Shown here piece by piece: positions 22,456 to 30,958 of a stretch of 64,000 nt of DNA. The position numbers and the translations under genes were made by a program. How positions within the stretch are numbered: the first letter of the stretch is position 1; each line of letters begins with the position of its first letter. A model generated the notes under the pieces. That model was not told where the DNA came from, did no database searches, and worked only from the letters and a program-made list of their open reading frames with translations. The DNA comes from Verrucomicrobiota bacterium. Lineage in GTDB: Bacteria; Verrucomicrobiota; Verrucomicrobiia; Limisphaerales; VHCN01. The stretch lies in the NCBI GenBank assembly GCA_016871675.1, contig VHCN01000008.1, positions 1 through 64,000 on the forward strand. Direction: 5' to 3'.

Positions 22456-23934
22456 ATGAATCCCCTCGATCCGTTCCGCGCCCCGGCCACGCTCGCAGGG
22501 CGAGCTGTGCTGCTGCTCGTGTTGATGCTCCACGTCGCGCCGCGAACCGCCGCCGCGCCGCCCAAGCCCAACGTCCTGTGGATTGTCGCCGACGACTTGA
22601 ACACGCGGCTCGGCTGCTACGGCGACGCGCTCGCGCACTCGCCGAACATTGACGCGCTCGCCAGGCGCGGCGTGAAGTTCGACCGCGCGTATTGCCAGTA
22701 TCCCCTGTGCAACCCGTCGCGCGCGTCGTTCATGACCGGCTTGCGGCCCGACACCACGCGCGTCCTTGAGAACGTCACACACTTCCGGAAGGCCGTTCCC
22801 GACGCGCAGTCCGTGGGGCAGACGTTTCAGCATGCCGGCTACCGCGTGACGCGCGTCGGCAAGCTCTATCACTACGGCGTGCCCGCGCAAATCGGCACGG
22901 ACGGCTTCGACGACGCGCCGTCGTGGCAGCGGACCATCAACCCGAAGGGCCGCGACAAGGACGAGGAGGCCGACCTCATCAACTTCACCCCCAAGATCGG
23001 GCTCGGCGCCGCGCTCGCGTGGCGCGAGACGCAGGGCAACGGCGAGGACCACACCGACGGCCTCATCGCCACGGAGGTCATCAAGCTCCTCGACCAACAC
23101 GCCGCGCAACCGGACAAGCCGTTTTTCATCGGCTGCGGGTTTTTCCGCCCGCACGTGCCGGTGCTTGCGAGCGCGAATTACTTCGCGCTGCACGCCCCCG
23201 GCAAGGTGCAGCTCCCGAGGGAACCGAAGGACCACCTCGCCGGCATCCCGCCCGCCGCGCTGCTGGTCAAGCCGCCGAGCTACGGTGTGCCCGAGGAGCA
23301 GCTTCTCGTTTTCCTCCGCGCCTACTACGCGAGCGTGAGCTTGATGGACGCGCAGGTCGGCCGCGTGCTTGCGGCGCTCGACCGCCTCAAGCTGCGCGAC
23401 CACACCATCGTCGTCTTCCACAGCGACCACGGCTGGCTGCTTGGCGAGCACGGCGGCCAGTGGCAGAAGCGCAGCCTCTTCGAGGAATCCGCGCGCGTGC
23501 CGCTCATCCTCGCCGCGCCCGGCGCGAAGGCCACCGGCCGCGCGTGCGGGCGCACCGTCGAGTTGGTGGACCTGCATCCCACCGTCGCGGACCTCTGCCG
23601 CCTGCCCGCGCCCGCGAAGCTCGAAGGCCGCAGCCTGCGCCCGCTGCTCTACGACGTGAACGCACCGTGGGACAAGCCCGCCTTCACGCAAGTCACGCGC
23701 AACGCCGAGACAAGCCTGACCGTGACCGTGGACCCGGCGAAGAAAACCTTCATGGGCCGGAGCGTCCGCACCGAGCGCTGGCGCTACACCGAGTGGGATG
23801 AAGGCCGCGAAGGCGCCGAGCTTTACGACCACGCCGCCGACCCGCGCGAGTGGAACAACCTCGCCAAAGACCCGAAGCACGCGAAGACGACGGAGCAAAT
23901 GAAGAAGCTGCTGCATCCGTCTCGCGATAACTGA
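22456..23934 (+). CDS. Exported sulfatase, iduronate-2-sulfatase-like
   Basis: A 492-residue protein with a signal sequence (hydrophobic residues 17-34, cleavage near TAAA-PPKP). NVLWIVADDLNTRLGCYG is the first metal site and C85-N-P-S-R89 the formylglycine motif. FHSDHGWLLGEHGGQWQK is the second metal site, and the C-terminal segment reads RTERWRYTEWDEGREGAELY. It resembles the divergent neighbour at 20903-22333 in domain order but is clearly a separate paralogue. The enzyme needs a formylglycine-generating enzyme or an anaerobic equivalent, not identified in this window. Confidence 0.9.
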   Translation: MNPLDPFRAPATLAGRAVLLLVLMLHVAPRTAAAPPKPNVLWIVADDLNTRLGCYGDALAHSPNIDALARRGVKFDRAYCQYPLCNPSRASFMTGLRPDTTRVLENVTHFRKAVPDAQSVGQTFQHAGYRVTRVGKLYHYGVPAQIGTDGFDDAPSWQRTINPKGRDKDEEADLINFTPKIGLGAALAWRETQGNGEDHTDGLIATEVIKLLDQHAAQPDKPFFIGCGFFRPHVPVLASANYFALHAPGKVQLPREPKDHLAGIPPAALLVKPPSYGVPEEQLLVFLRAYYASVSLMDAQVGRVLAALDRLKLRDHTIVVFHSDHGWLLGEHGGQWQKRSLFEESARVPLILAAPGAKATGRACGRTVELVDLHPTVADLCRLPAPAKLEGRSLRPLLYDVNAPWDKPAFTQVTRNAETSLTVTVDPAKKTFMGRSVRTERWRYTEWDEGREGAELYDHAADPREWNNLAKDPKHAKTTEQMKKLLHPSRDN

Positions 23935-25299: not shown

Positions 25300-25618
25300 G
25301 GATTCTGGACGACACAGACGGATGGCGTGTTCGAGGGACACATCGTGCGCGAGGAGTCCCGCCGGGCCGGGCGCGCACGGGCCAGCCCTTGAACGGCCGC
25401 GCGCACATTTCCCCCGCGCGCGTGGGCGGTGCCCGCCGGCATTGAGCGCCGTCAGCGACAGCGAGCTGCCGCGTCGAGCGACCGGTTCCATCGGGTTTTC
25501 TCCATAGAATCGTGAGGTGAGGTGCAGCGTCACCGGCACGGTGCGCATCTCAAATCCTGCTGGCCGCGAGGCCAGTTTGGGCTATCCGCATGCGGGCGGG
25601 CTGGTGTTTACTCAGCGC
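25300..25618. other. Divergent intergenic region, no gene seen
   Basis: 319 bp between the start codons of the propeller gene and msrA. The open frames that cross it do not look coding and no RNA fold was recognised. Near 25607-25612 a TTTACT could be a -10 box for msrA, but no convincing -35 accompanies it. Confidence 0.5.
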
Positions 25619-26326
25619 ATGAAACGCCCGTGGCTCCTCGCGCTCGCCGTCCTCGGTCCGGTGCTCGCGGGTTGCGCGCCCACCACCGCACCTGTGAATA
25701 CCGAACCAACATCCACCACATCCTCCAAGCCTTCCGCACCGGCCACCGCCGCGCCTGCCGCAACGAACGCAGACGCGGTGGCCGCACCCGTTGCCGCCGG
25801 GCCGACGCAGAAAATAGTCGTGGGCGGCGGGTGTTTCTGGTGCGTCGAGGCGGTGTTGCAGCGACTCCCGGGCGTGACGAAAGTCGTGTCCGGTTATTCC
25901 GGTGGCCACGTGCCGAACCCGACCTACGAGCAGATTTCCGAGAAGAACACCGGCCACGCGGAAGTCGTGCAGGTGGAGTTTGATCCGGCCGTCGTGCCCC
26001 TCGGAACCGTGCTCGACGTGTTCTTCCTTTCACACGATCCGACCACGTTGAACCGGCAGGGGGCGGACTCGGGACCGCAGTATCGCTCGTGCATTTTCTA
26101 CGCCGACGACGCGCAGAAGGCCGCCGCCGAGGCCGCGACGAAGCGGGCCCAACCCGACTGGCGCGTTCCCATCGTGACGGAGATCGCGCCGTTGAAGAAC
26201 TTCTACGTCGCGGAGGGCTACCACCAGAATTACTACAACCTGAACAAGAACCGGAATTCTTATTGCGCCGTCGTGATCACGCCAAAGCTCAACAAGCTGC
26301 TCAACAAGGGCGTGATCAGGGAGTAA
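25619..26326 (+). CDS. msrA: Peptide methionine sulfoxide reductase MsrA, lipoprotein form
   Basis: A 235-residue protein. The start at 25619 gives a lipoprotein signal (MKRPWLLALAVLGPVLAGC, lipidated C19), followed by a Thr/Ala/Pro-rich tether to about residue 63. The MsrA domain has the catalytic motif G71-C72-F-W-C75, then GYSGGHVPNPTYEQIS, TGHAEVVQVEFDP and HDPTTLNRQGAD. It reduces methionine-S-sulfoxide in proteins; the lipid anchor places it outside the cytoplasm. The gene is convergent with the selenoprotein candidate, with stops 9 bp apart. Both are redox proteins of the envelope, which makes their adjacency notable, although opposite strands argue against one operon. Confidence 0.95.
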   Translation: MKRPWLLALAVLGPVLAGCAPTTAPVNTEPTSTTSSKPSAPATAAPAATNADAVAAPVAAGPTQKIVVGGGCFWCVEAVLQRLPGVTKVVSGYSGGHVPNPTYEQISEKNTGHAEVVQVEFDPAVVPLGTVLDVFFLSHDPTTLNRQGADSGPQYRSCIFYADDAQKAAAEAATKRAQPDWRVPIVTEIAPLKNFYVAEGYHQNYYNLNKNRNSYCAVVITPKLNKLLNKGVIRE

Positions 26327-26335
26327 CGGGCGCGG

Positions 26336-27658
26336 TCACTGTTGCGTGGGCAACTGAAGCTCGACGCGCTGGCCGCCGCGCAGGACCGTCGCGGGAATCT
26401 TCGAGCCCGCGGGCTTGGTGAGCAGGTAGGCCAGCCACTCGGCCTCCGTCATGCGGCGCGTCCGGCCGTCGATGGCCACGATGATGTCTCCCTTGCGGAA
26501 GCCGGCGTTCTTCGCGGCGGCGTGCTCGCCGTATTCGCCGGCGTGTTTGATCTCGAGCGCGAGCTTGTCGGCGCCAAGGCCGGCCTTCGCGAGCGCTTCG
26601 CCGGCGAGCGCGTCCACCTTCAAGCCGCCCGTCGCCATCCGGCGCAGGTCCCACGAGCTGACGCGCCATCCAAAATCACTAACCCGCCGCCAGCCCGCAT
26701 CAAGCGTGAGCATGAGCGGGGTCTTCTTGCCGCCGCGAAGAACCTCGGCGTTCAACCGTGCGGGCGTCTTCGCGAACTGCATCACGAACTGCACGTCGGC
26801 GATCGAGATGATGGGTTGGCCGCCGAGCGAGGTGATTTCGTCGCCCGCCTTGAAGCCGTCCTTCTCCGCGGTGGAGCCGGGGATGACGCGGCGCACTTTT
26901 GCCTTCTCCTTTGGATCGAGGCTCAAGCCGACGACATCCGGCATCGGCCACGTGTGAAGAATCTCCTCGGGAATCGGCTGGCCCGCGGCGCGGAACATCT
27001 TGCGTTCGGCCTCGAGCGGCTGGTGGCAGTGCATGCAGCTTTGCACGGGCTTGGCGGCGTCGAGCGTGGCCTGGTAGCGGCCTTTGAGCGACGGGTATTG
27101 CTCGGGCCGGCTGAAGCGCGGCGCGGGACCGGTCTTCGCAACGAACGCCGACTGGTTCGCCGGGTAGCCCTTGTGCAATTCGAGCGCGGCCGCGAGCGTT
27201 TTGCCGAGTCCGTCGATCGAGATCTCCCGGTCGGCTTTCTTCATGTCCGAGCGCGTGCCGAAGCGGCCGTAGATGGTGCCGTCGGCGTTCATGAAGAACA
27301 TCGCGAACGTCTGGTCGTAGTCGAACTGGAACCGCGCCAGGTCGGTGCCGTTGAATTGCACCACGCGCACGCCGACGAACTCCTTCATCAGTGACTGGAT
27401 TTTCGGGTCGTGACGGACCAACTGGTCGTCAATGCCGCGGCACTCCACTCAGGGCACTCACCGGAAGACGATGGCGAGCGGCTTGCCCGTGCGGCGCGCC
27501 TCGGCGAAGCCCTGGTTGAGGTCGTTGTAAACCCAGAGGCCGCCGGCGGTCACGTCGGCGCGGTCTTTTTGGACGCGTTCGAGGCGGTTCTCGGCGGCGT
27601 CGAGTGCGCCCGTGCCGGCGAGCAGCAGGCCCGTGAGGAGGATGGTGCGTTGGAGCAT
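26336..27658 (-). CDS. Predicted double-selenocysteine Trx-fold/CxxCH/PDZ-PDZ protein (two in-frame UGA)
   Basis: Read from the ATG at 27658 through two TGA codons (27460-27458 and 27451-27449), this gives 440 residues. Order: signal peptide (1-21); thioredoxin-like domain (about 30-160) with FR-U67-V-P-U70-V-E-C73; a CxxCH heme-type motif (C208-MH-C211-H212); PDZ domain (about 240-322); an odd linker RRVSDFGWRVSSWDLRR; second PDZ (about 345-438). The next gene has the same layout and the same TGA positions. Without recoding, the upstream piece is a 66-residue stub and the downstream piece has no good start. TGA is an ordinary stop in most neighbours, so general reassignment is excluded. Function inferred: periplasmic thiol/selenol redox. 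The alternative, two parallel nonsense pairs, is unlikely. Confidence 0.8.
27411..27431 (-). promoter_or_regulatory. SECIS-like hairpin downstream of the second UGA (first paralogue)
   Basis: On the minus strand TGACG-ACC, loop AGTT, GGT-(bulged C)-CGTCA: eight pairs, 17 nt after the second UGA. Bacterial SECIS elements are hairpins just 3' of the UGA with G/GU in the apical loop, and here GU is in the loop. A smaller hairpin (GTGC, loop CGCG, GCAT; 27443-27432) lies 14 nt after the first UGA. Thermodynamics not computed. Confidence 0.5.
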
Positions 27659-27799
27659 GGCGGGATTACGTGTTGCGGGCGGTTTCCTGGCAAGGCATTT
27701 GAGTGGGGGGAGTATTCAGAGTTCAGTCGGGCACGCCATCGTCGTCGCTCAAGTTGTCTGAACCGAACCCTCACCGTTGAAAACCGAAAACGCTCCCCA

Positions 27800-28780
27800 T
27801 CATTTCGGCGGCTTGCGCCAATCGGCCGCGAGGGTCAGCGGAAGGGTGATGCGTTTGCCTGCGCGCAGCACGTCGGCCTTCAACTTCGTCGGGGCGATTG
27901 CGTTGTGCGTGACCCATTGGATGTCCGCGATGCTCAGGATGGGCTGTCCTTCGAGGGTGAGGATGTCATCGCCGACCTTGAAGCCGTCGCGCGCGGCGGT
28001 CGTGTCGTCCCGGACGCGGGAGACTCGTGCCTTCTGCTTGGGATCCAGGCCGAGTCCGAACACCTCGGGCATGGGATACGGCAGCTTGAGCGCCAGCGGC
28101 ATGTCGCGCTTGGCACCCTCGTGCTCGCGCTTCTGCGCCTGCGAAATCTGATGGCAGTGGATGCAGTTGCGGTCGCCGACAACCGGGCGTTCGCCCGGGC
28201 GCCCAAATTTCGCGGCGAGCGACGGATAATCCTCCGGCACCTTGCGGCTGACGGGCAGGGGCTGCTTGCCAAGGAGCGAGGGTTTGTTGGCCGGGTAGCC
28301 CTTGTGGATTTCCAGCGCGGCCTCGAGCGCCTTGCCGAAGCTCTCGATGCCCGTCGCCTGCGAGGCCTGCCGGCGGCCCGTGCGCGAGGCGTATCGGCCG
28401 TAGATGGTGCGGTCGGCGTTCAGCATGAACGCGGCAAAGGTGAGGTCGTAGTCGAACTGGAAGAGGGTGAGGTCCATTCCGTTTGCCTGCACGATGCGCA
28501 CGCACACGAACTGGTCGAGGAGCTTCTGAACTTTCGGATCGCGACGAACAACCTGCTCGTCAAAGGACTGGCAGTCCACTCAGGGCACTCACCTGAACAC
28601 CACGAGCATGGGCTTGCCGGTGCGCGCGGCCTCGGCGAATCCGCGCGGCAGGTCGTTGTAGATCCAGCTCCCCGCCGCGACGGCCTCGGCGCGGTCGGCG
28701 GTGAGGAGGTTGTCGCGCGGTTGCGCGAGCGTGGTCGCGGGGGCGAGGATGGCGACGGCGAGGAACACGAGTCGTTTCAT
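27800..28780 (-). CDS. Predicted double-selenocysteine Trx-fold/CxxCH/PDZ protein (two in-frame UGA)
   Basis: From the ATG at 28780 through TGA codons at 28591-28589 and 28582-28580 this reads 326 residues. There is a signal peptide (MKRLVFLAVAILAPATTLAQ), then a thioredoxin-like domain with FR-U64-V-P-U67-V-D-C70. Next come a CxxCH motif (NCIHCHQ, about residue 205) and one PDZ domain (LTLEGQPILSIADIQWV) at the end. It matches the first paralogue on both sides of the UGAs: DLPRGFAEAARTGKP before, and LFQFDYDLTFAAFMLNAD and LEIHKGYPAN after. It lacks the second PDZ. It sits 141 bp upstream of its paralogue on the same strand, so co-transcription is likely. Redox partner unknown. Confidence 0.8.
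28543..28561 (-). promoter_or_regulatory. SECIS-like hairpin downstream of the second UGA (second paralogue)
   Basis: GACGAGCA, loop GGT, TGTTCGTC: an 8-bp stem with one G-T pair, 18 nt after the second UGA. Opening one pair gives the loop AGGTT, close to the GGU-containing apical loop of the classical fdhF SECIS. It lies at the same offset as the hairpin in the paralogue, although the bases differ at several paired positions. Confidence 0.55.
28565..28577 (-). promoter_or_regulatory. SECIS-like hairpin downstream of the first UGA (second paralogue)
   Basis: GGACT, loop GCC, AGTCC: a perfect 5-bp stem starting 11 nt after the first UGA, within the usual bacterial SECIS distance. The second UGA lies between the first UGA and this stem. 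The loop lacks the typical GU, so it may act together with the next hairpin. Confidence 0.4.
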
Positions 28781-28826: not shown

Positions 28827-30275
28827 TCAAGGCGATGGCGCAGGTTGCTCCTCGGCGACGTAAATGACGAGGCGAAATCCGATCTCCGGAGTGCGCCGCA
28901 CGGGGATCTTGTTCCCGCGGAACGAGGAGAGAAGGTTGTCCGACGCAACATCCGCATACGAGCCGCCCCGCACGGCGCGGGCGGTCTGGTAGTTGTCCAT
29001 CCAGTCGAGGCACCATTCGGCTGCGTTCCCGGCGAGGTCGTGAATGCCAAATTCATTCGGCGGAAAACTCATCACCGGCGCCGTGAACTCGAATCCGTCC
29101 AGGCCCAACCCCTGCGCGAAATTGCCCGAAGCCTCTGCGGGCGGCCAGTTGGTGCCCCACGGATACAACCGGCGCGTGCGCTTGTTGCGCTCGGAGGGCG
29201 TGCTGCCCGGCTCTTTCAGAATGCCGGCCGCCGCGCTCCAGCCGAGGTCTGAGGGGAGCCGGTATTCGTCGTGCGGGCCGAGCTGGCCGGAGACGCGTTC
29301 GCGCGCCGTGAGCCAGCGCGCAAAGGCCATCGCCTCGTCCCACATCACGTTTACCACGGGATGCGTCGGCCCCTGATCGAACTGCGGCCGTATCCAGTCG
29401 CGCCGCGTGGACTCGATAAACTTCGCGAAATCCATCACGCGCGTCTCGTGCGCGCAAAAGAGGACTTTGGTGCCGACGATGGGGACGAACTTCATCCCGA
29501 GCGTGTTCGTCCAGCTGGTGCCGAGTTCGGAGAGCTGCTCCACGCGCCTCGGCTTTGCCGCGGCCGCGGCCTTTTGCTCGGCCTCTTTCTTGGCGAGCTG
29601 GTCGGCGCGTTCGCGCGCCCGGGCCTCGTCCGCGAGCCGGCGTGCCTCGGCCTCTTCCTTTTCCTTTGCCGCGGCCGATTCGGCCATGCGGCGGTTCGGC
29701 AAGACCACGCCCCACAGAATTCCCGCCGCGACCGCGCAAACGACGAGCAGGCAACCCGCAATCAACGTCCGCCTGTTGAAGCGCGCGCGGCTGCGACCGT
29801 TGCCCGCGCCGGTGGGCGTGTCCGGCGACGCGTCCGGCTTGCCCGCGCGCGGGCGGAATCCCGTCGGCAAGCCCGCAGCGCCCGAGTCCGCGCCGCGGAT
29901 GGGCCCCGTCTTGTTCGCGGGCGGGTGGAACTCGATGTCGATGGGCGCGGTGGGTTTGGAGTAAGCCTTCGGCGCGGGCTGCCCCGACGGGACCGGCGCG
30001 CTTGCCGCCGCGGGCTTCGACGGCGACTTGGGAGTCACCTTGATGGGGCCCGGGCCCTTCGGCGGATCGATCGGACCGGAGCTGATCGGGCCCGTTGCGG
30101 CTGCGCCCGACTTCCCCTTGCGCATGACCATCGACGCGGGGAGGAAATCGTCGCTGTCCTCGCGCCGGATCAACACGTTGGCGGAAAGTTCCTCGGCCTT
30201 GATCTTTAGGATGATCTCGCGATCCGTGCACGGGCCGTGCTCGGCGCCGTCGTGGAAGTAAAACCACTTCTTCAT
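28827..30275 (-). CDS. GYF_2 domain - transmembrane - FGE-fold (SUMF1) protein
   Basis: A 482-residue protein (ATG at 30275; a GTG two codons upstream is also possible and would overlap the preceding stop). The N-terminal 50 residues (WFYFHDGAEHGPCTDREI) are a GYF_2 domain. A Pro/Lys/Ala linker follows, then a transmembrane helix (about 170-193), a charged coiled coil (about 196-243) and a C-terminal FGE-sulfatase/SUMF1 fold (GMKFVPIVG..., FGIHDLAGNAAEWCLDW, VRGGSYADVASD). The Cys pair that true formylglycine-generating enzymes carry after RGGS is absent, so it probably does not activate the sulfatases here. It follows the kinase-tail/FHA-like gene directly and may be part of that signalling unit. 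Confidence 0.8.
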   Translation of the reverse strand: MKKWFYFHDGAEHGPCTDREIILKIKAEELSANVLIRREDSDDFLPASMVMRKGKSGAAATGPISSGPIDPPKGPGPIKVTPKSPSKPAAASAPVPSGQPAPKAYSKPTAPIDIEFHPPANKTGPIRGADSGAAGLPTGFRPRAGKPDASPDTPTGAGNGRSRARFNRRTLIAGCLLVVCAVAAGILWGVVLPNRRMAESAAAKEKEEAEARRLADEARARERADQLAKKEAEQKAAAAAKPRRVEQLSELGTSWTNTLGMKFVPIVGTKVLFCAHETRVMDFAKFIESTRRDWIRPQFDQGPTHPVVNVMWDEAMAFARWLTARERVSGQLGPHDEYRLPSDLGWSAAAGILKEPGSTPSERNKRTRRLYPWGTNWPPAEASGNFAQGLGLDGFEFTAPVMSFPPNEFGIHDLAGNAAEWCLDWMDNYQTARAVRGGSYADVASDNLLSSFRGNKIPVRRTPEIGFRLVIYVAEEQPAPSP

Positions 30276-30277
30276 GC

Positions 30278-30958
30278 TCACGACCGCATGAAGTCGAACG
30301 CGGCGAGGCGTCCGCCGGGTTCCTCCGAGAGCAGCAGGCGCAGACCCGGCACGATCTCGACGTGCTCGCCGTGGCGCACGTAGGCGCCGTCAATGATGCA
30401 CATGTCGTGGCCGCTCTGGTTCACGAGCCACCACCGGCCCTGGTGAAAGCTGAAGTAGCCCTGGGGCGTGCGGTCCGCGTCCAGTGGCGACACGTTCGAG
30501 AACAGGTGCCACTTGTAGATATACATGTTGTGCCAGATGGTCAGCGAGTGGCCTTCCGCCTTGAACGCGCGTTCCCCGGGGCTCTTCTCCCGGTAAAATT
30601 CAGCGAACGGCACCGGCGCTGTCAAGCGCGACCCCGTGAACGGGCAGTTCATCGGCATCCCCGGCGCCAGCACGAACCACTCGTGCCCGCCCGGCGACGG
30701 ATGAATGAGGTCGAACGTCTTGCTCAACGCCTTCTCCCACTCGCTCGCGCTCGCGCGTCGCTGCGGCGCATGCAACGCCTCGACGAATGTCTTGAGAAAG
30801 AGCGGTTCGAGACACGGGCCAAGCAGGGCGACGGGCGCGGTCGCGGCTGGCGTCGCGGTATCGGACGCCTTGCCCGGGTCGGCTGCGGCGGGCTTTTTCT
30901 CCGCCTTGTCTTCGGCAGGCTTGGCGGCGGAACCGGCAGTGAGACGATCGGTGTTCAT
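30278..30958 (-). CDS. YegI/TerY-type kinase tail with C-terminal FHA-like domain (no kinase domain)
   Basis: A 226-residue protein (ATG at 30958). After an Ala/Lys-rich lead of about 45 residues, LFLKTFVEALHAPQRRASAS and EWEKALSKTFDLIHP resemble the segment that follows the C-lobe of the Ser/Thr kinases in TerY/YegI clusters. There, an EW..AL motif precedes a Cys/His-containing element, here EWFVLAPGMPMNCPF. No nucleotide loop or catalytic HxD is present. The last 90 residues (YFSFHQGRWWLVNQSGHDMC..DGAYVRHGEHVEI) look FHA-like. It lies between a VWA gene and a GYF/FGE gene on the same strand. I infer a phospho-signalling adaptor derived from a kinase; confidence is moderate. Confidence 0.5.
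   Translation of the reverse strand: MNTDRLTAGSAAKPAEDKAEKKPAAADPGKASDTATPAATAPVALLGPCLEPLFLKTFVEALHAPQRRASASEWEKALSKTFDLIHPSPGGHEWFVLAPGMPMNCPFTGSRLTAPVPFAEFYREKSPGERAFKAEGHSLTIWHNMYIYKWHLFSNVSPLDADRTPQGYFSFHQGRWWLVNQSGHDMCIIDGAYVRHGEHVEIVPGLRLLLSEEPGGRLAAFDFMRS

Follow-up and report, generated by a model that had tools for sequence, protein, structure and literature searches.

The question raised by this locus was whether two adjacent genes, each carrying two in-frame TGA codons, are damaged copies or encode proteins with two selenocysteine (Sec) residues at one redox site. The window (the whole stretch of 64,000 nucleotides analyzed here, from an uncultured Verrucomicrobiota bacterium) holds the two genes on its minus strand, and an earlier note made from the sequence alone had read both as double-Sec proteins. 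This reading was supported by the Sec machinery of the genome, by the Cys counterparts found in relatives, by a covarying hairpin and by selection on the reading frame, and Sec very probably replaces both active-site cysteines (UxxU) in both genes. Beyond what the earlier note had described, the analysis brought out a SECIS element, an invariant CxxCH motif and an odd SECIS in gene 2. The genes and their TGA codons are as follows:

27800..28780, minus strand: gene 1 (P0001, 326 aa), predicted exported Trx7/PDZ-like selenoprotein with a single PDZ domain and a UVPU site
28589..28591, minus strand: TGA 1 of gene 1 (U64), in the alignment column of the first CxxC cysteine
28580..28582, minus strand: TGA 2 of gene 1 (U67), in the alignment column of the second CxxC cysteine
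26336..27658, minus strand: gene 2 (P0002, 440 aa), predicted exported Trx7/PDZ selenoprotein with two PDZ domains and a UVPU site
27458..27460, minus strand: TGA 1 of gene 2 (U67), in the alignment column of the first CxxC cysteine
27449..27451, minus strand: TGA 2 of gene 2 (U70), in the alignment column of the second CxxC cysteine

In both genes the TGA pair, three codons apart, lies inside the Thioredoxin_7 domain and gives FR-U-V-P-U-V-[DE]-C. Coordinates and frames were read directly, and placed the two TGAs of each gene at matching codons, as previously described. The two proteins share 49% identity and align without gaps across FRUVPUV[DE]C, and the flanking blocks pointed out earlier (GFAEA.RTGKP, FQFDYD.TFA.F and HKGYPAN) were all recovered in the alignment. 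Apart from the two TGAs, no in-frame stop was found when both frames were read. The 19-nt run spanning the TGAs (GGTGAGTGCCCTGAGTGGA) is indeed identical in the two genes, but it is not a unique island of identity: the paralogues share a second identical 19-nt run, TTCCAGTTCGACTACGACC, further downstream, so the identity over the site is weak evidence when taken alone. The dN/dS ratio 3' of the TGAs was about 0.5 when the paralogues were compared with each other. Against relatives it was about 0.1-0.35, with dS close to saturation. By these sequence comparisons, the frames on both sides of the TGAs are under purifying selection in both genes.

The genome of the window (3.61 Mb, 149 contigs, 97% complete) encodes the full Sec system: selA, selB, selD and tRNA-Sec, which the earlier note had proposed to look for, were all found. 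The tRNA-Sec (anticodon TCA), selD and selA stand side by side on contig 44, and selB lies apart on contig 27. The selD gene (L085 3257-4314, contig 44) carries one in-frame TGA of its own, at SSCAGUAAK, which is a separate indication that UGA stands for Sec in this genome.

Outside the TGAs, the two proteins show a common domain order, with a thioredoxin domain followed by PDZ:

28415..28666, minus strand: Thioredoxin_7 domain of gene 1, residues 39-122 (Pfam)
27833..28036, minus strand: PDZ domain of gene 1, residues 249-316 (Pfam, PDZ_2 model)
27284..27535, minus strand: Thioredoxin_7 domain of gene 2, residues 42-125 (Pfam)
26714..26908, minus strand: first PDZ domain of gene 2, residues 251-315 (Pfam)
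26348..26524, minus strand: second PDZ domain of gene 2, residues ~379-437 (NCBIfam, Pfam and AlphaFold2 model)

Scores for PF13899 (Thioredoxin_7) and for PDZ models exceeded the cut-offs in both proteins. The name Trx/PDZ (seleno)protein, given in the earlier note, turned out to be that of a real family, NCBIfam NF041199 (cut-off 300 bits). With 393.2 bits, gene 2 belongs by its model score to this Trx7/PDZ (seleno)protein family. Gene 1 scored 298.6 bits alone and 304.7 bits when joined with its frame neighbours; it is a close match to the model, borderline because it has no second PDZ domain. The AlphaFold2 model of gene 2 was of high confidence, with a mean pLDDT of 92.5. Both N-termini carry signal-like segments, as judged by eye, and both proteins look exported. 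Searches of the PDB by sequence and by fold matched PDZ domains only, of DegP/DegQ/RseP type, and were thus uninformative on the thioredoxin part or the region following it.

Homologues of the TGA site were sought by a DNA pattern scan of 84,980 species genomes, in which the second TGA and the SECIS apex were fixed while the first codon (TGN) and the variable stem bases were left free. At least 117 loci were obtained, against about 4 expected by chance (an estimate from the count of fixed bases), and 116 of the 117 listed matches were family members (the exception being L134). A TGA at the first position too (UxxU) was present in at least 29 loci, 29 of the 116 members among the matches listed. 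The listed UxxU loci came mostly from Poribacteria (including three chromosome-level assemblies, OX638352, OX638316 and OY282374), then from Planctomycetota, with one from Armatimonadota, and their downstream frames were mostly full-length. A protein search, not biased by the hairpin, added one more UxxU member from the window's own order (L218, on G563 contig 315); its motif, FRUVTUVAC, has VT rather than VP between the two Sec positions. Recurrence of chance nonsense mutations, which the earlier note had dismissed from the pair itself, is ruled out because the two-TGA site recurs in at least 29 loci of three other phyla and in one more of the window's own order; these homologous sites outside the window were decisive.

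Across the 142 members sampled, 31 were CxxC, 81 CxxU and 30 UxxU. Relatives within the phylum and the order had either CxxC and no TGA or CxxU and a single TGA, so that the homologue check suggested in the earlier note returned Cys at both TGA positions or Cys followed by TGA. No UxxC member was seen, the DNA pattern scan being blind to this form since its second TGA was fixed. In a tree of the 142 rows (two motif residues masked; unrooted, so that gains and losses are not separable), at least 10 changes occurred at position 1 and at least 4 at position 2, and strongly supported branches alone forced 7 changes for UxxU. The nearest relatives of the window pair were CxxU proteins of Verrucomicrobiota metagenome-assembled genomes; gene 2 lay nearer to relatives than gene 1 and on a shorter branch. 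From these comparisons, UxxU is a recurrent variant of a known family, widespread across phyla and not private to the window.

Some members departed from the common pattern in other ways. A third Cys, located six residues beyond the first, is kept in CxxC and nearly all UxxU members, and is replaced by Gly in a CxxU clade composed mostly of Acidobacteriota (L089 and others). One CxxU member (L074/L210, on G437 contig 174) carries an extra in-frame TGA (FVCVULVQ) at a position that is Arg in all 58 aligned members, possibly a mutation or a sequence error. Another CxxU member (L170) belongs to a cultured organism, Roseibacillus persicicus strain KCTC 12988.

Candidate bacterial SECIS (bSECIS) elements were judged by an apex located 16-37 nt after the UGA (the published distance rule, PMC13188914), a G in the first two loop positions and a minimum free energy of -7.5 kcal/mol or lower. 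One hairpin of this kind was located in each gene:

28543..28561, minus strand: bSECIS hairpin of gene 1, GACGAGCAGGTTGTTCGTC (fold and covariation)
27412..27430, minus strand: bSECIS-like hairpin of gene 2, GACGACCAGTTGGTCCGTC (fold; protein search of the family)

The gene 1 hairpin (8-bp stem, GGU loop, -10.3 kcal/mol) begins 18 nt past TGA 2, with its apex 26 nt past TGA 2 and 35 nt past TGA 1. The gene 2 hairpin has an AGUU loop (G second), a bulged C and an energy of -9.3 kcal/mol, and its apex lies 25 nt past TGA 2 and 34 nt past TGA 1. Both hairpins satisfy the published criteria, and a single hairpin would serve both UGAs in each gene, as both distances fall within 16-37 nt. Another hairpin directly after UGA 1 of gene 1 (GGACUGCCAGUCC) was dropped, being absent from gene 2.

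The Rfam scan of both genes gave no bacterial SECIS match and the z-scores of single-sequence folding were unremarkable; it is only covariation that makes the hairpin convincing. Over 66 distinct hairpins, 93.4% of the stem was paired, a value reached in none of 500 shuffles, and 40 cells had changed on both sides against 9.9 in shuffles. Three stem pairs were paired in 330 of 333 cases (shuffled maximum, 286), and slid controls for the stem gave 28-51% pairing versus about 93% observed. The most variable stem pair, which was left free in the search pattern, occurred as GC (28), AU (19) and CG (14). CxxC members had no such hairpin at the site. The apex CAGGTTG was found at a fixed distance in all Sec members but gene 2 (one exception in 111); it was a search condition for the pattern-scan loci, and members obtained through protein and family searches show it too. 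The apex of gene 2 is CAGTTGG, and among Sec members from the hairpin-independent protein search it was again the sole one to differ.

One alternative to double-Sec decoding of both genes, that gene 1 works as a double-Sec protein while gene 2 is decoded poorly or not at all, its TGAs being relics or a regulated stop, is suggested by the gene 2 SECIS lacking the apex common to every other Sec member. It is judged improbable: the hairpin of gene 2 still fits the published rules (AGUU with G second, 25 nt, -9.3 kcal/mol), and gene 2 is the copy that lies closer to relatives, on a shorter branch, with the full domain set and a dN/dS of about 0.1-0.35 against relatives. Because the general bSECIS rules hold and gene 2 is in other respects better conserved than gene 1, we think that gene 2 is decoded, perhaps with lower efficiency. 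It is less probable still, in our estimate, that Sec is inserted at the second UGA only (CxxU), with the first UGA a nonsense mutation shared through gene conversion or ancestry and the proteins mostly ending at residue 63 or 66. CxxU is admittedly the usual Sec form (81 rows against 30), TGC becomes TGA by one base change, and the paralogues share their identical 19-nt run precisely over the site; yet UxxU recurs in 29 listed loci of other phyla, mostly with full-length 3' frames, and in one of the same order. The tree needs no fewer than 10 changes at the first position, and branches with strong support alone demand 7 for UxxU. UGA 1 also lies within SECIS range, and purifying selection acts on the 3' frame of both genes.

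That the genes are pseudogenes or products of assembly errors would be conceivable in a draft genome of 149 contigs, but is considered highly unlikely: the four TGAs sit at homologous codons of two genes that have diverged, these genes show no further lesion, and the two-TGA site also occurs on the chromosome-level OX638352, OX638316 and OY282374. A reassignment of UGA in this genome, for example to Trp, can practically be discarded: the residue that homologues have at these codons is Cys and not Trp, the genome has the complete Sec system, and genes 1 and 2, like the neighbouring sulfatase gene (22456-23934), have TGA as their terminal stop codon. As both genes end in ordinary TGA stops, UGA is not reassigned. 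Insertion of Sec at both positions of both genes stays the reading preferred here.

A further feature of the family lies between the thioredoxin and PDZ domains:

28151..28165, minus strand: CIHCH heme-c attachment motif of gene 1, C206-H210 (motif read in the alignment)
27023..27037, minus strand: CMHCH heme-c attachment motif of gene 2, C208-H212 (motif read in the alignment)

A CxxCH was found there in 142 of 142 sampled members, at least 100 residues into the extracted protein. In the 58-row alignment C208, C211 and H212 are invariant, like the pair of positions taken by Sec or Cys, and H162 is almost invariant. The AlphaFold2 model of gene 2 places a small helical region between the two domains, and proteins for cytochrome c assembly were found in the genome (two PF01578 proteins over cut-off). 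We read this as a predicted c-type heme between the thioredoxin and PDZ domains. A third redox site or a metal-binding site instead of a heme site would agree with the Pfam scan of both proteins, which gave no cytochrome domain over cut-off (a sub-threshold Cytochrome_P460 match only), and with the top PDB fold matches, which included no cytochrome. This alternative seems less likely than not, considering that the motif is present in every sampled member with its C, C and H invariant in 58 rows, in proteins that look exported, and in a genome with cytochrome c assembly genes. The heme domain is one that we infer, as searches of solved structures matched PDZ domains only.

Under the proposed mechanism, one in-frame bSECIS hairpin would recruit SelB.Sec-tRNA to both UGAs. 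In the periplasm, the two selenols would form a Se-Se or Se-S redox couple. Electrons would pass between this couple and a c-type heme attached to the invariant CxxCH in the domain that follows, and the PDZ domains would hold on to a partner or substrate protein via its C-terminal tail. The role might lie in the repair of thiols or of oxidative damage outside the cytoplasm. An exported, heme-coupled diselenide oxidoreductase with PDZ domains holding its partner or substrate is a plausible but tentative description of both proteins. The surroundings of the two genes were considered for such a partner:

25517..26326, plus strand: MsrA (TIGR00401, 186.6 bits, cut-off 108.1) with an N-terminal LAGC lipobox-like signal (by eye), converging on gene 2
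28827-30281, minus strand, as gene 1: protein with an FGE-sulfatase-like domain and a GYF_2 domain, 46 bases upstream of gene 1

The neighbouring MsrA looks like an exported lipoprotein that would need an electron donor, and is a possible redox partner. As a conserved partner it was rejected: an MsrA-like motif occurred in 1 of the 117 listed loci, so its adjacency is probably incidental. The FGE-sulfatase-like gene is possibly co-transcribed with gene 1. The neighbours of UxxU genes had no common function (DUF3500 in Poribacteria, others mixed), and no conserved gene neighbourhood pointing to a substrate was seen among the listed family loci.

Two-Sec redox sites have been described elsewhere. 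Selenoprotein L (SelL), reportedly described by Shchedrina et al. in 2007 (a paper cited in PMC2398784), is an animal UxxU family with a diselenide bond, and it offers a precedent for a diselenide in a two-Sec UxxU motif; it belongs to another family and kingdom and is not known to have PDZ or CxxCH. Among prokaryotes, Prx-like UxxU, metal-binding NF041115 UxxU and FmdB-type UxxU proteins and ferredoxin-thioredoxin reductase likewise have two UGA-encoded Sec per redox site, but in unrelated domain arrangements that are not exported Trx7/PDZ proteins. The VPGUxxT thioredoxin-like (seleno)proteins NF041382 and NF041383 show weak similarity in the thioredoxin part, with one Sec and another spacing; membership was rejected, the best scores (20.2 bits against a cut-off of 350, and 27.3 against 275) being far below.

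With NF041199 itself, the two proteins share domain order, the Trx7 active site, Sec at the second Cys position and an in-frame bSECIS. This family goes back to a study of ocean metagenomes, in which it apparently bears the name 'putative secreted serine protease MucD' (PMC2398784, PMC9402790), a link between the MucD entry and NF041199 that rests on reviews citing the ocean metagenome paper. Two reviews list the Trx7/PDZ family with one Sec, CxxU, and extra conserved Cys of unclear function are mentioned (PMC9402790). Genes 1 and 2 differ from the family as catalogued in having UGA at both positions, but with 30 of 142 sampled members being UxxU, the catalogue entry is incomplete and no bar to membership. 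The CxxCH is not mentioned in the accessible parts of the NF041199 literature, and its invariance is apparently unremarked in the open-access texts and in the family model names.

The findings may extend to a widespread class of exported proteins in which a UxxU diselenide thioredoxin site is coupled to a c-type heme on the same chain, one SECIS serves two UGAs nine bases apart, and the first position has repeatedly switched between Cys and Sec; this wider view is more speculative than the description proposed for the two proteins. Annotation easily truncates such genes at the first UGA. Double-Sec redox sites are rare, and two Sec residues come at a cost to the cell. The family offers a natural series of CxxC, CxxU and UxxU with at least 10 changes at one position, so that it can be tested directly what a second Sec contributes and how far one SECIS can act across two UGAs. 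As the invariant heme-c motif suggests, the thiol or selenol site may have a heme partner, and this redirects the search for the function of the family.
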